In this document: positions 2,936 through 44,345 of the stretch, piece by piece
Numbering within the stretch: position 1 is the stretch's first letter
How the letters are laid out: every line of letters begins with the position of its first letter
DNA from: Chloroflexota bacterium
Lineage (GTDB): Bacteria > Chloroflexota > Dehalococcoidia > Lucifugimonadales > UBA3495
Direction of reading: 5' to 3'
DNA length: 48,423 bases
NCBI GenBank assembly: GCA_009840175.1
Contig: VXOI01000059.1
Span: 1-48,423 of the forward strand
Notes under the pieces: generated by a model
What the model was told of the DNA's origin: nothing
The model's database searches: none
Seen by the model: the letters and a program-made list of their open reading frames with translations, nothing else
Translations under genes and position numbers: made by a program

Positions 2936-4528
2936 ATGCCAGGAACCAAAGTGCAGAAGCAGAAATCCCAGGGCAACCGTGCCGCCATCTACGCCCGTGT
3001 TTCCGACAAGAGCCAGGACGCAGAGGACAAGACCTCCATCGCCGAGCAGACCAGCGATATGGAAGCCTACTGCGAGCGTAGGGGGCTGACCATCGTCGCC
3101 CGCTACCAGGAGGTGGGACAGGGCTGGTCCAAGAAGCGCAATCAGTTCCAGAAGATGCTAAATGACGCCAAGCTGGGCCGCTTCGACACCATCGTCTGCT
3201 GGAAGTCGGACCGCCTCAGCCGGGGGATGTACCCCGCCGCCGCACTGATGGAGGTGGTGGAAGCCAGCCACGTCAACCTGGAAGCGGTGATGGACTCCAT
3301 CGACATGAAGACCTTCGGCCTGATGGCCGCCATCGGCAAGATCGAGCTGGACAACTTCCGGGAAAGGTCCTCAATGGGCAAGCGGGGTACCGCCAAGGCA
3401 GGGCGCATCCCGGTCAGCAACGTTCCCTACGGCTACCGCGTCGGCGATGGCGGCAGGCCGGAGATCGTGGAAGAGGAGGCCAAGGTGGTGCGCCGCATCT
3501 ACCGCTGGTGCGTTGACGAGGGATTGGGGGCCACGGTCATCCGTAACCGGCTCACCGCCGAGGGCGCTCCCTTGGGTCGGGCCGGCAAGCGGTGGTGGGA
3601 CGGACAGATTCACCGCATCCTCACCAACGAGACCTACAAGGGCACCTGGTGGTACGGACGCGCCCGCTACGTCTCCACCGAGGACGGCATCAAGGTCTAC
3701 GACCAGGACCCCGAGAACTGGATCGGCGTCCCCTTCCCGGCCATCATCGACGCGGAAACCTGGGACCGCTGCCAGGAAATGAGGACCAAGCGCAAGACCT
3801 ATTCCGGGCGCAACACCAAGATATTCTACCTGTTGCAACACCTGGTGCGCTGCACCGAGTGCGGGATGCTCATGGGCTGCATGGCCACCAGGAAGCGGAC
3901 GGTGAAGCACGGCGACAAGGTGTACAAGTACGAGATGGAAATCCCCCGCCGCTACTACAAGTGCTACGGAGTGCAGCACTTCCAAACCGGCTGCCGGGAG
4001 CACACCATGATCCGGGCGGAGCGGTTGGAGGAGTTGGTCTGGGAACAGGTCAAGCAGGTGCTGGCCAATCCCGCCCTGATAGTCTCAGGGATCGAGTCCT
4101 TGGGTGAGCAGCAAGAGGGAGGACTGAGCGAGGAGGTTGTTAGGGCGGAGCGGGAGTTGGAGAAGGTGCAGTTGGAGGAGGACCGGGCCATCCGGCTCTA
4201 CGTGTCGGGGAAGATAACCGAGGCCCAGCTGGACCACCAAAGGAAGTTCATCACGGAAAGGTTGGAGAGCGCCCGCAGGAAGCTGGACGACTACCGGGCC
4301 AGGGAGTCGGCCCAGGCGGGGCAGCGCGAAATGGCCGAGCGGGTGTTGGAGTGGGCGGAACGGATAGGCGACGGATTGGACGACCTGCCTCAAGAGCAGC
4401 GGAGAGAGGTCCTGCGTCTGCTGCTGGAGGAGGTGACCATCAACCGGGAGAACAACCTCAATTTCACGCTGGCGATCCCATCGGAAGATTTGGAGTCGAT
4501 TGAACCTCCGGTATCAGGCGAGCAATAG
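2936..4528 (+). CDS. large serine recombinase (site-specific integrase)
   Basis: A 530-residue large serine recombinase. The N-terminal catalytic domain starts at AAIYARVSDKSQD, with S23 as the likely nucleophile, and continues through WKSDRLSRG and GKIELDNFRERS. A recombinase DNA-binding domain follows (VPYGYRVG, then WWDGQIHRILTNETYKG). A zinc ribbon begins at CTECGMLMGC and closes with a YYKC motif and a later Cys. A charged coiled coil then precedes the C-terminus (VLRLLLEEVTI), which is the usual architecture. The ATG at 2936 has AGGAGG at proper spacing; the in-frame start 93 bp upstream falls within the terminator hairpin and is unlikely. Such enzymes integrate phages or conjugative/mobilisable elements. 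No attachment sites could be identified, and the left end of any element may lie outside the window. Confidence 0.95.
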   Translation: MPGTKVQKQKSQGNRAAIYARVSDKSQDAEDKTSIAEQTSDMEAYCERRGLTIVARYQEVGQGWSKKRNQFQKMLNDAKLGRFDTIVCWKSDRLSRGMYPAAALMEVVEASHVNLEAVMDSIDMKTFGLMAAIGKIELDNFRERSSMGKRGTAKAGRIPVSNVPYGYRVGDGGRPEIVEEEAKVVRRIYRWCVDEGLGATVIRNRLTAEGAPLGRAGKRWWDGQIHRILTNETYKGTWWYGRARYVSTEDGIKVYDQDPENWIGVPFPAIIDAETWDRCQEMRTKRKTYSGRNTKIFYLLQHLVRCTECGMLMGCMATRKRTVKHGDKVYKYEMEIPRRYYKCYGVQHFQTGCREHTMIRAERLEELVWEQVKQVLANPALIVSGIESLGEQQEGGLSEEVVRAERELEKVQLEEDRAIRLYVSGKITEAQLDHQRKFITERLESARRKLDDYRARESAQAGQREMAERVLEWAERIGDGLDDLPQEQRREVLRLLLEEVTINRENNLNFTLAIPSEDLESIEPPVSGEQ

Positions 4529-6612: not shown

Positions 6613-7074
6613 ATGTTGACACAGCAGGAGTTGGTAGACCGGATGCGCGAGTGGGCCGTCCGGGTCACTCCGCAACGATTGGCTATCGCCGAAGTCGTCC
6701 TGAATTCCCAGGACCATCCCACGGTGCAGCAGATATACGAGCGGGTGCGCGGACATTTCCCGTCCATGACCCTCGCAACCATCTACTCCACTCTGAGCGT
6801 CCTGCAAAAAAGCGGGCTGATCCAGGAACTTCCCTTCCAGCGAATGTCCCGCTACGAGCCCAACATGGAGCCTCACGTCAATCTGGTCTGCATCGAGTGC
6901 GAAAACGTGATTGACGCCGACACCGCCAGCGAAGTGCATGACATGGTGGTGAGCCTGCGCAACAGCATCTCGGAAAGCACCGACTTCGAGGTTGGCTGGC
7001 AGCGGGTGGACTTCTACGGTCTCTGCCCGCGCTGCTCCGCCGCCAAGCGCCGGGGAGAACTGGCGGAGGTCTAG
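6613..7074 (+). CDS. Fur/PerR-family metalloregulator
   Basis: A 153-residue Fur-superfamily repressor. The winged-helix half shows VTPQRLAIAEVVLN, HPTVQQIYERVR and MTLATIYSTLSVLQKSGLI. The C-terminal dimerisation half keeps two CxxC zinc pairs (VCIECENVID and LCPRCSAA). The His-rich metal segment before the first CxxC is reduced (EPHVNLVC against the usual HHHLIC), so the sensed metal is uncertain; PerR-like or Fur-like sensing is possible. The ATG at 6613 is preceded by GGAG at 7-8 bp. The frame extends upstream to 6565, but those residues are not conserved-looking. Its targets are not evident nearby. Confidence 0.85.
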   Translation: MLTQQELVDRMREWAVRVTPQRLAIAEVVLNSQDHPTVQQIYERVRGHFPSMTLATIYSTLSVLQKSGLIQELPFQRMSRYEPNMEPHVNLVCIECENVIDADTASEVHDMVVSLRNSISESTDFEVGWQRVDFYGLCPRCSAAKRRGELAEV

Positions 7075-7083
7075 CCCTAGGGG

Positions 7084-7123
7084 AGACGCCCCCACCCCAA
7101 CCCTCCCCCGGAGGGAGAGGGAG
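7084..7123 (+). repeat. family-A palindromic repeat
   Basis: Intergenic copy of the commonest repeat: an asymmetric CACCC(T/C)AACCC tail, then CTCCC, a short loop and GGGAG. It starts 10 bases after the Fur-family stop codon. Confidence 0.8.
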
Positions 7124-7187
7124 TTGTATAGTAGGAAGCCGGCCGGTGTTGCCCACTGGCCGGTTTCACTTTGTGGAGGTTCAGCCG

Positions 7188-7568
7188 ATGATTAATGGAG
7201 TGGTTGGAGTCACCTTCTGGACCGACGATCTGGAGAAGATGTTCCGCTTCTACAACGACGTGCTGCAACTGCCCCTGCATTCCCGGCATCCCGATTTCAT
7301 CGCCTTCGACCTGGGCCGGGGCGGGCCGGACGGAAACTCATCCATGCGGTTCAACATCGGGCTGCACGACCGGGTATCCGGCGCATCGAAGGACTCCTAC
7401 CGCTTCATGCCCCACCTGGGCGTGGACGACATTCACGCCGTCGCCTCTCGGCTGGCCGACGCCGGAGTGGAATTTATACGCCAGCCGGAGCAGGAGATCT
7501 GGGGCGGCTGGGTCGCCACCTTCCTCGACCCCGACGGCAACACACTGCAACTGCTGCAACTGGTGTAA
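7188..7568 (+). CDS. VOC-superfamily (glyoxalase-like) protein
   Basis: A 126-residue vicinal-oxygen-chelate fold protein. Two beta-alpha-beta-beta-beta modules are visible: VVGVTFWTDDLEKMFRFYND, then MPHLGVDDIHAVASRLADAG, ending FLDPDGNTLQLLQL. The usual final metal-ligand Glu before LLQ is not obvious, and Gln occupies that area, so it may not be a classic glyoxalase. A GGAGG lies about 10 bp before the ATG. The upstream in-frame start at 7146 would add repeat-adjacent sequence and is less likely. Substrate unknown. Confidence 0.8.
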   Translation: MINGVVGVTFWTDDLEKMFRFYNDVLQLPLHSRHPDFIAFDLGRGGPDGNSSMRFNIGLHDRVSGASKDSYRFMPHLGVDDIHAVASRLADAGVEFIRQPEQEIWGGWVATFLDPDGNTLQLLQLV

Positions 7569-19559: not shown

Positions 19560-19763
19560 ATGCCACAGACAAAATGGCCGATCTTGGTCGTCATCGCATT
19601 GGTTGCTGTTGCGGCCGTGTTGCCGCCAAACGCAGTCATTGCCGGGTCCCATTGGATCTCGAAATTGGTGATCTCATTCCTTAGCACACAACTTTTCGGG
19701 ATGGTGGCGCTTTTGCTCATCGGCGCGGTCGTAATAGCTGCGTTACGGAATTCCCTACGATGA
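19560..19763 (+). CDS. small two-span membrane protein
   Basis: A 67-residue product with two hydrophobic segments (WPILVVIALVAVAAVLPP and FGMVALLLIGAVVIAAL). GGAGG stands 7 bp before the ATG. The stop overlaps the start of the HNH gene by 4 bp (ATGA), so the two are translationally coupled. Size and hydrophobicity could suit a holin-like or immunity protein, but nothing specific supports either. Confidence 0.6.
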   Translation: MPQTKWPILVVIALVAVAAVLPPNAVIAGSHWISKLVISFLSTQLFGMVALLLIGAVVIAALRNSLR

Positions 19764-20314
19764 CCAAACGGAAGTACGACTATTTCCATACGCAACACCG
19801 AGCAGCGAGAGCGCAAGCCTTTGCCCGCTCAGACGGCGTTTGCCAATTCTGCGGGATGCGAGATGCAAACGAGGGCCACCATTGGGAGTTCTGGAGCTAC
19901 AAGCCAGAGAAAGATACTACTGCCGACGATCTTACCGCCTTGTGCGTCGTTTGCCACGAAATCGCAACCAACTTGCGCAAGTTTCAAGGGAATATCTCAG
20001 GACTCTTGTCTGCTTTCAGAACAGCGACAAGGGAAACATACAATTCGGGAGAAAACACATGGAACTTGAGGTCAAAATTAAAGGCATCAGACCTATTATC
20101 ATGCACTCCAGCCGCGGGCTTGACCCCAATGACCCTGCCGCTATCGAAAGGAAGGGAATCACGGACAAGCCTGCCAAAACCCTTACGGCTAGCGAAATCG
20201 CCCGGCTCGGCGAACTCGACTGCTACCTCTCCCTTTGGCTGGACGGGAACGGGCAGCCTACCATCCCGGCAACGGCAATCCGCTCTGCTATCGAAACAGC
20301 GGCGCGAAAGCTGA
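19760..20314 (+). CDS. HNH-type zinc protein
   Basis: A 184-codon ORF whose first 95 or so residues look like an HNH/zinc-finger nuclease: GVCQFCGMRDANEGHHWEFW, then DDLTALCVVCHEIATNL, giving two CxxC knuckles (C28/C31, C62/C65) and a GHH motif. After about residue 95 the frame runs for 256 bp on top of the next gene (start 20059), where composition is Ser/Pro/Arg-rich and looks like shadow. Either the real protein was longer and lost its stop, or the tail is untranslated noise after a frameshift. Overlaps the small membrane gene by 4 bp. Confidence 0.65.
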   Translation: MTKRKYDYFHTQHRAARAQAFARSDGVCQFCGMRDANEGHHWEFWSYKPEKDTTADDLTALCVVCHEIATNLRKFQGNISGLLSAFRTATRETYNSGENTWNLRSKLKASDLLSCTPAAGLTPMTLPLSKGRESRTSLPKPLRLAKSPGSANSTATSPFGWTGTGSLPSRQRQSALLSKQRRES

Positions 20315-20664
20315 AACAGGGACCACAAGTCCGCGAGGGCCTAATGGTGTCCTCGGTGGACGTCTTCGAGTATGATCGCGGTCGCTACGGAAACGACTTG
20401 GAGGACCTGATTCATACGACTCAATTCCGTGCAGTAGTTGTGAACCCCAGCAACAAGGCCCGTATCGTGCGGACGAGGGCGATGTTTGAGGAGCCGTGGG
20501 AATGCGCGTTCACTCTCGACTTGGACGATGAACTCGTTGACCAAGCGCGGCTTGAAACCTGGCTCGACATCACTGGCCGCCGCATCGGCCTGGGTGACTG
20601 GCGGCCCGAAAAGTCTGGCGACCATGGGCGGTTCGAGACAGTGAGCTTGAATGTCGTAGAATAA
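20059..20664 (+). CDS. phage-type conserved hypothetical, possible RAMP-like fold
   Basis: A 201-residue protein. The opening MELEVKIKGIRPIIMHSSRG, then TIPATAIRSAIETAARKLKQ, GNDLEDLIHTTQFRAVVVNP, RTRAMFEEPWECAFTLDLDDELVD and ITGRRIGLGDWRPEKSGDHGRF, resembles a group of conserved proteins that I associate with phages and actinobacterial islands. This is recognition from memory, not a search. The strand-rich start and paired modules are reminiscent of RAMP/Cas7-like RNA-binding folds, which is speculative. GGGAG precedes the ATG. The 5-bp-period array starts 9 bases after its stop codon. Confidence 0.6.
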   Translation: MELEVKIKGIRPIIMHSSRGLDPNDPAAIERKGITDKPAKTLTASEIARLGELDCYLSLWLDGNGQPTIPATAIRSAIETAARKLKQGPQVREGLMVSSVDVFEYDRGRYGNDLEDLIHTTQFRAVVVNPSNKARIVRTRAMFEEPWECAFTLDLDDELVDQARLETWLDITGRRIGLGDWRPEKSGDHGRFETVSLNVVE

Positions 20665-20672
20665 CCGAGTCG

Positions 20673-20742
20673 TGGCTGGGCTGGGCTAGGCGTGGCTCGG
20701 ACTGGCAAGGCGTGGCCCGGCAAGGCAGGGCAAGGACAGGGC
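20673..20742 (+). repeat. 5-bp-period array, 14 NGGCN units
   Basis: Fourteen consecutive pentamers in exact register from 20673: tggct, gggct, gggct, aggcg and so on to agggc. Positions 2-3 are GG in all 14; position 4 is C in 11 of 14; positions 1 and 5 vary freely. The phase never slips over 70 bp. The last unit also pairs ACAGGGCG (20736-20743) with CGCCCTGT (20759-20766). No ORF uses the array. Confidence 0.9.
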
Positions 20743-20800
20743 GGGGGACAATCTCTCTCGCCCTGTAAATTTCCAATCGGATGAACGTGGAGCTTTGCAA

Positions 20801-41648: not shown

Positions 41649-41714
41649 AATGTCAGGTTCAGGGAATGGCGGCTATCGCCACAGGGCTTTTCTGTTCAGC
41701 GCAGAATGTAGAGC

Positions 41715-41855
41715 ACCTCCACCCGGGCAGGTTTCCTGACTTGCGGGCATCCCGATAGGCTCGGCAACCCGTTCACAGTGGCGCAACCGTGGCGGACTTA
41801 CACCGCCTTCCCCTGAAATGCCGAGACCGGCGCACCGGGCGGGCCGTTTCGATTG
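41715..41855 (-). promoter_or_regulatory. cobalamin riboswitch upstream of cbiE-cobN
   Basis: The minus strand reads GGGAAGGCGGTGTAAGTCCG, then GCGCCACTGTGAACGGG, and ends with AAGTCAGGAAACCTGCC, the B12-box arrangement of the cobalamin aptamer. Boundaries are approximate. Confidence 0.9.
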
Positions 41856-44129: not shown

Positions 44130-44345
44130 CAGCGAAATTGAGGCCACCCAGTCCGGCGCGCCCTACAAGCGGGCGTGAACAGGGAAAGCGGTGAGAATCC
44201 GCTGCGGAGGCGCCACTGTAACCGGTTAGCCGCCCGCTGATGCCACTGTCCGCTAAGGGATGGGAAGGCGCGGGAGAGGCGATGAGCCGGGAGCCAGGAG
44301 ACCTGCCGGGTTGAGCTGAGCGGTCGCTCTTCGTCCAGGGAGTGC
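44130..44345 (+). promoter_or_regulatory. cobalamin riboswitch upstream of btuC
   Basis: Reads GAACAGGGAAAGCGGTGAGA, then GGCGCCACTGTAACCGG and GAGCCAGGAGACCTGCCGGG, the classic cobalamin aptamer landmarks. A long variable domain sits between them. Boundaries approximate. Confidence 0.95.

Follow-up and report, generated by a model that had tools for sequence, protein, structure and literature searches.

We are highly confident that the locus described here is a VIPR system, from a clade whose vipr genes mostly have an HNH nuclease gene in front of them. It lies in a 48,423-nt stretch of DNA from a Chloroflexota bacterium, and "the window" below means this whole stretch. VIPR has been described as a RAMP protein (Vipr) together with vrRNAs that consist of 9-16 YNNGG repeats and end in a 3' tail (bioRxiv 2026.04.26.720920, PMC13142463). 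According to the same source, GGY/NN vrRNAs guide Vipr to DNA, the NN pairs matching the target with one base skipped (PMC13142463). The features of such systems recur here: a homologous minimal RAMP, 13 repeats, a GGY frame with hypervariable NN, a structured tail, and vipr accompanied by one DNA-acting accessory gene (Table 1). The reading is based on what was seen in this analysis: a RAMP/Cas7 fold, sequence homology to SUSP1 Vipr, the array and the sequence rules that its relatives follow, the hairpin at its end and the association with HNH.

Table 1. Features of the locus, in window coordinates
Feature	Position	Strand	Basis
HNH endonuclease ORF, 184 aa, candidate vap	19760..20314	+	Pfam, HNH PHROGs, position in relatives
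vipr, 201 aa, predicted RAMP/Cas7-fold protein (PHROG 4652)	20059..20664	+	phmmer, profile, AlphaFold, Foldseek, PHROG
Candidate vrRNA promoter (GAGACA, 16 nt, TAGAAT)	20635..20662	+	weak consensus match, 9/12
Putative vrRNA guide tract, 13 YNNGG units	20671..20735	+	direct reading, shuffles, homologue arrays
Putative vrRNA 3' tail, hairpin with 13-bp stem and 5-nt loop	20736..20766	+	fold energy, relatives' hairpins

The Vipr protein and its genomic surroundings

The product of vipr is homologous to the "SUSP1 Vipr protein" (PDB 36pp; phmmer E 1.7e-10, profile E 3.6e-20), its sole significant PDB match by sequence, and it also matches PHROG 4652 (E 1.5e-29), a family with no assigned function. 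An AlphaFold prediction (15 window and locus sequences) reached a pLDDT of 88.9. When it was compared with the PDB by Foldseek, the best 50 matches were all CRISPR effector chains, mostly Csm but also Cmr, type VII and III-D, and VIA-align placed it on Csm3 with a Z of ~11 over 140-160 residues. These comparisons support a predicted RAMP/Cas7 fold and agree with the initial annotation of this DNA, which had speculatively linked the gene to RAMP/Cas7-type proteins from the letters alone; its further guess, a Cas7-like periodic filament, was of the right kind.

Homologues were found in Felix O1-like, Gordonia, Mycobacterium and Pseudomonas phages (SUSP1, the model phage of the VIPR paper, is among the tblastn matches of the window protein), in rhizobial, Azospirillum and Paenibacillus replicons and, at 50-61% identity, in MAGs of Chloroflexota, Alphaproteobacteria and Binatia. 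Judged by its nearest relatives, the host belongs to Chloroflexota, probably to Dehalococcoidia. A search of the viral contigs with the single protein as query found no relative. One alphaproteobacterial contig (L018) encodes a further protein of 274 aa that is PHROG 4652/RAMP-like (6640-7461, E 1.6e-13), ~2 kb downstream of the Vipr gene and with no array of its own nearby. Additionally, a 1.5-Mb genome of the same class (G048) holds three copies of a Vipr locus (L005, L010, L013) with identical array sequence, which suggests a mobile element or a repeated prophage.

The gene had been called phage-type, which is apt for its homologues in phages but not for this locus, where the neighbours are ordinary chromosomal genes: a periplasmic binding protein, a polysaccharide deacetylase, a PaREP1-like protein and an NHL beta-propeller, and further hydrolases, a dehydrogenase and a luciferase-like monooxygenase. 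Since these neighbours are ordinary and PADLOC matched no family in the seven proteins tested, nothing points directly to a prophage or to a known defence island. Of the features of class 1 CRISPR-Cas (type III), a Cas7-fold RAMP is present, but neither the cas operon (Cas10, Csm/Cmr, Cas1/2) nor any other cas family (Pfam, PADLOC) was found among the neighbouring proteins tested.

An HNH gene overlapping vipr

The ORF that precedes vipr matches Pfam PF01844 (23.2 bits against a cut-off of 21.4) as well as several HNH PHROGs; its HNH motif is intact, and the domain finishes 5' of the vipr start. The HNH frame runs ~255 nt into vipr in a different frame, and the relatives stop similarly (225-258 nt); the cause appears to be a TGA that the invariant KLK codons (CTGAAA) yield in that frame. 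An HNH-vipr frameshift fusion was considered and is not claimed, as the similar end in relatives looks like a by-product of these codons.

The overlapping layout recurs at L002, L003, L016-L020, L025, L028 and L029, two pairs of which (L002/L025 and L003/L019) are apparently the same loci from two collections. Loci of Azospirillum and Bradyrhizobium have an HNH ORF just 5' of vipr. In a tree of 35 Vipr proteins, the HNH-bearing loci fall into one clade (support 99/99), separate from the phage members. Within that clade the HNH gene is upstream of vipr in 13 of 20 rows, overlapping it in the closest relatives, and no HNH was seen beside vipr in the members from Boseongicola, Silicimonas and Binatia. 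At L028, arrays lie upstream of the HNH gene (3232-3563), two of them on the opposite strand.

The pentamer array and its hairpin tail

Downstream of the TAA stop of vipr (20662-20664), direct reading of the + strand gives a GG at 20674, 20679 and so on to 20744, which is 15 steps of five without a break. Because the last two GG sit within the stem of the 3' hairpin, the repeat tract proper consists of 13 units ending at 20735 (...GGCAAGG). Eleven of the 13 units have C immediately 3' of GG, and the other two have A (GGACT, GGACA). The initial annotation had described 14 NGGCN units in unbroken register; the register held, whereas the count and the fixed C did not. It had also paired the last unit with 20759-20766, and a hairpin is indeed there, but a longer one: ACAGGGCGGGGGA (20736-20748) pairs with TCTCTCGCCCTGT (20754-20766) over 13 bp, folding at -23.5 kcal/mol (z -5.1).

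Such a run is not expected by chance. The longest period-5 GG run was 7 in 100 dinucleotide shuffles of the whole window and 8 in 20,000 shuffles of 20665-20760, none of which reached 13. At the other periods from 3 to 12, no independent GG run above 7 was found on either strand, a period-10 run of 8 being the same array. The 4.3-Mb genome holds one such array, at this locus alone, and near vipr a tandem repeat scan turned up only the pentamer array.

Read 5' to 3', the NN string is GT TG TG TA GT TC CT AA GT CC (AA AG AA), its final three pairs probably forming a constant terminus of the guide tract. The free NN positions are best read as a guide and the array as an RNA with a hairpin tail; by analogy with published VIPR loci, 20671-20766 would be transcribed as a vrRNA. 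Transcription from the candidate promoter could possibly begin at ~20669, just 5' of the array. In many relatives the array likewise finishes in GGCAAGG or a close variant, with a hairpin behind it (L018, L019, L021, L029); in some others, such as L020 and L025, a clear hairpin after the array was not seen. At L008, two arrays (1288-1341 and 2022-2100) flank the gene and have a common tail, GAACTTCGGTTC, which forms a UUCG-tetraloop hairpin. A scan of 12 loci including the window against Rfam (gathering threshold) gave no hammerhead ribozyme; the window yielded tRNA and cobalamin riboswitches only, the two riboswitches lying at 41709-41854 (-) and 44137-44324 (+).

Arrays at homologous loci

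If array and gene belong together, the association should extend to homologues, and in a set of 38 loci from phages, plasmids and chromosomes (near-copies removed, window included) it does. Sense-strand runs of at least 6 GG pentamers lie within 1.5 kb at 30 of the 38 loci, so that homologues do not regularly lack them, and an antisense run occurs at one; each of the 30 sense arrays beats 100 of 100 shuffles. No array of at least 6 units was found at the remaining 8 of 38, some of which have a partial gene, an incomplete flank or a shorter, broken array.

Of the 517 units in 58 arrays, 96.7% carry C or T as the third base; the invariance of GG is a product of the scan definition. The NN positions are nearly free, with entropies of 1.86 and 1.98 bits and all 16 dinucleotides occurring. 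No pair among the 58 arrays has 6 consecutive NN in common, and the NN strings differ even where the vipr DNA is 96-97% identical (L023/L030, L021/L022).

Target searches and alternative explanations

The guide of the window has no convincing target in the collections searched. All 13 units, with up to 3 mismatches, found none in the window, its own genome or 393 genomes of the class; units 1-10 found none in its own genome (up to 3 mismatches) or in 383 class genomes (1 mismatch), and neither units 1-10 nor units 4-13 had an exact match in viral contigs. Pieces of 8 units match 7, 8 and 2 viral contigs, none extending convincingly, and the matches do not favour wobble phase. Units 2-10 match one viral contig (L105), but out of wobble phase and with no support on either side, which is likely chance. 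The lack of a match in this collection means little, since the guide of LESphi2, used as a method control, also found no exact 10-unit match.

The guide of an HNH-bearing relative on a Bradyrhizobium plasmid (L042) has an 8-unit core that matches 37 viral contigs. In 34 of them the skipped base falls on the wobble position of a codon, and 23 belong to one connected protein family that shares the motif GAISGTPTTA or a near form of it, a motif we take to be typical of Ig-like (He_PIG) domains. Four contigs of this family (L111, L112, L120, L131) match the 10-unit guide in full, 10/10 units or 20/20 bases, in wobble phase; a fifth 10/10 match (L138) lies outside the family. By a rough estimate assuming uniform composition, ~0.1 perfect 20-base matches would be expected per guide, and three guides were tried; wobble-phase matches cluster in protein families, which inflates the counts. 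At the level of sequence, the result is suggestive of a guide directed at phage Ig-like-domain genes under the skip rule, in agreement with the published code. It falls short of proof because any period-3 gapped pattern collects homologous coding matches.

Given these searches, a reading to be weighed is that the locus is VIPR by descent but no longer works, two units having lost GGY and one guide being left. We consider this unlikely. While the two GGA units, the single short array in the genome and the lack of a target for the guide (own genome, ~390 class genomes, viral contigs) would all fit decay, the vipr frame is intact and retains the residues invariant in relatives, the HNH motif is equally intact, the tail hairpin is perfect and the register of 13 units is unbroken. 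Moreover, A in place of Y also occurs in 2.7% of units in other arrays.

It is far less probable that the locus is a homing or selfish element in which the HNH protein and an array-binding protein act on the DNA of the array to spread the cassette, with no RNA guidance. HNH genes do often home, and phage copies such as that of LittleE are placed between tail genes, but hypervariable NN in a constant GGY frame, followed by a hairpin tail, is the pattern of a guide, not of a binding site. The strand bias of the arrays toward the gene (30 against 1) is also at odds with homing, as is the scan of phage members of the family, which found no HNH motif directly beside the gene. Furthermore, vrRNA guidance has been demonstrated experimentally for SUSP1 (PMC13142463).

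The arrays might finally be ordinary pentanucleotide microsatellites adjoining an unrelated gene, an explanation we can hardly credit: 22 of 392 gene-less genomes of the phylum do have an 8-unit GGY array somewhere, but most of these are near-identical simple repeats of low NN entropy, whereas Vipr-linked arrays are complex (entropy ~1.9-3.1 bits), the units here are not the near-identical ones of slippage, and content varies with GG and register kept, in the window as in its relatives. The speculative core of the first reading of this DNA withstood each of the tests applied to it. Among the 400 phylum genomes examined, 8-unit GGY arrays are present in 6 of 8 with the gene against those 22 of 392 without it (p = 1.7e-6), and are thus not equally common beside unrelated genes; for complex arrays the figures are 6 of 8 against 3 of 392 (p = 4e-10), with an entropy cut-off that was chosen post hoc.

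Two complex NGGYN arrays, one of 13 GG (G023:C1:951200-951251; L087/L096) and one of 8 GG (G085:C4:9861-9897; L086/L095), have no vipr-like gene within ~8 kb on either side. Both come from the same genus as the vipr-bearing G069, and they may be orphan vrRNA genes or remnants.

Proposed mechanism and significance

In the VIPR reading that we prefer, the HNH gene and vipr would be translated as an overlapping pair, and the array would yield one short vrRNA of 13 YNNGG repeats with a hairpin cap. By analogy with the VIPR paper, one Vipr subunit would probably occupy each 5-nt unit, gripping GGY and leaving NN exposed, and the NN pairs would jointly read DNA with a one-base skip, as NNxNNxNN. The HNH protein would presumably cut the recognised DNA, probably that of an invading phage or other mobile element; both the cutting and the defensive role at this locus are conjecture on our part. 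Beyond this locus, we put forward a tentative proposal, which we hold to be possible but on the whole doubtful, of an HNH-armed clade: the Vipr-vrRNA complex would recruit the co-translated HNH, turning a noncontiguous code toward cleavage and not repression, with a guide of ~10 units, a constant AAGG terminus and a simple hairpin, as a form of chromosomal immunity in Chloroflexota, Alphaproteobacteria and others.

The principle is anticipated by the 2026 VIPR preprint (bioRxiv 2026.04.26.720920). That publication, NN as a guide, the hairpin-tailed RNA and the overlapping HNH gene were all absent from the initial annotation. What the locus adds is that VIPR machinery sits on an environmental bacterium's chromosome and is linked there to a nuclease gene. 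It offers a compact candidate for asking whether a skip code can direct DNA cutting, and whether VIPR, en route to CRISPR, passed from phage warfare into the immunity of hosts.

Comparison with known systems

The relation to class 1 CRISPR systems (types III and VII) lies in the protein. The predicted RAMP fold is common to Vipr and Cas7/Csm3, at a sequence identity of only 12-16% and with no cas genes among the neighbours tested here, and the guide consists of pentamers here in place of a spacer.

The closest comparison is with the VIPR of SUSP1 (type II) and of a P. fulva prophage, which, like the present locus, have a homologous Vipr and an adjoining YNNGG repeat RNA gene, as well as a structured 3' tail in a minimal two-gene locus (PMC13142463). 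The differences are equally clear. This locus lies on a bacterial chromosome and the known ones in phage; vipr begins inside an HNH endonuclease gene here, unlike in SUSP1 and P. fulva; there is one putative vrRNA here against four there; and the tail is a simple 13-bp hairpin here, against the pseudoknot reported in the SUSP1 clade (PMC13142463). HNH does not appear in the main text of that paper, which divides VIPR into seven types (PMC13142463). As described there, types III-V carry a nuclease or helicase vap, and types III and V are enriched in defence islands (PMC13142463). The nuclease-type candidate vap and the chromosomal location of this locus fit types III-V, whereas the neighbours tested here include no known defence genes.
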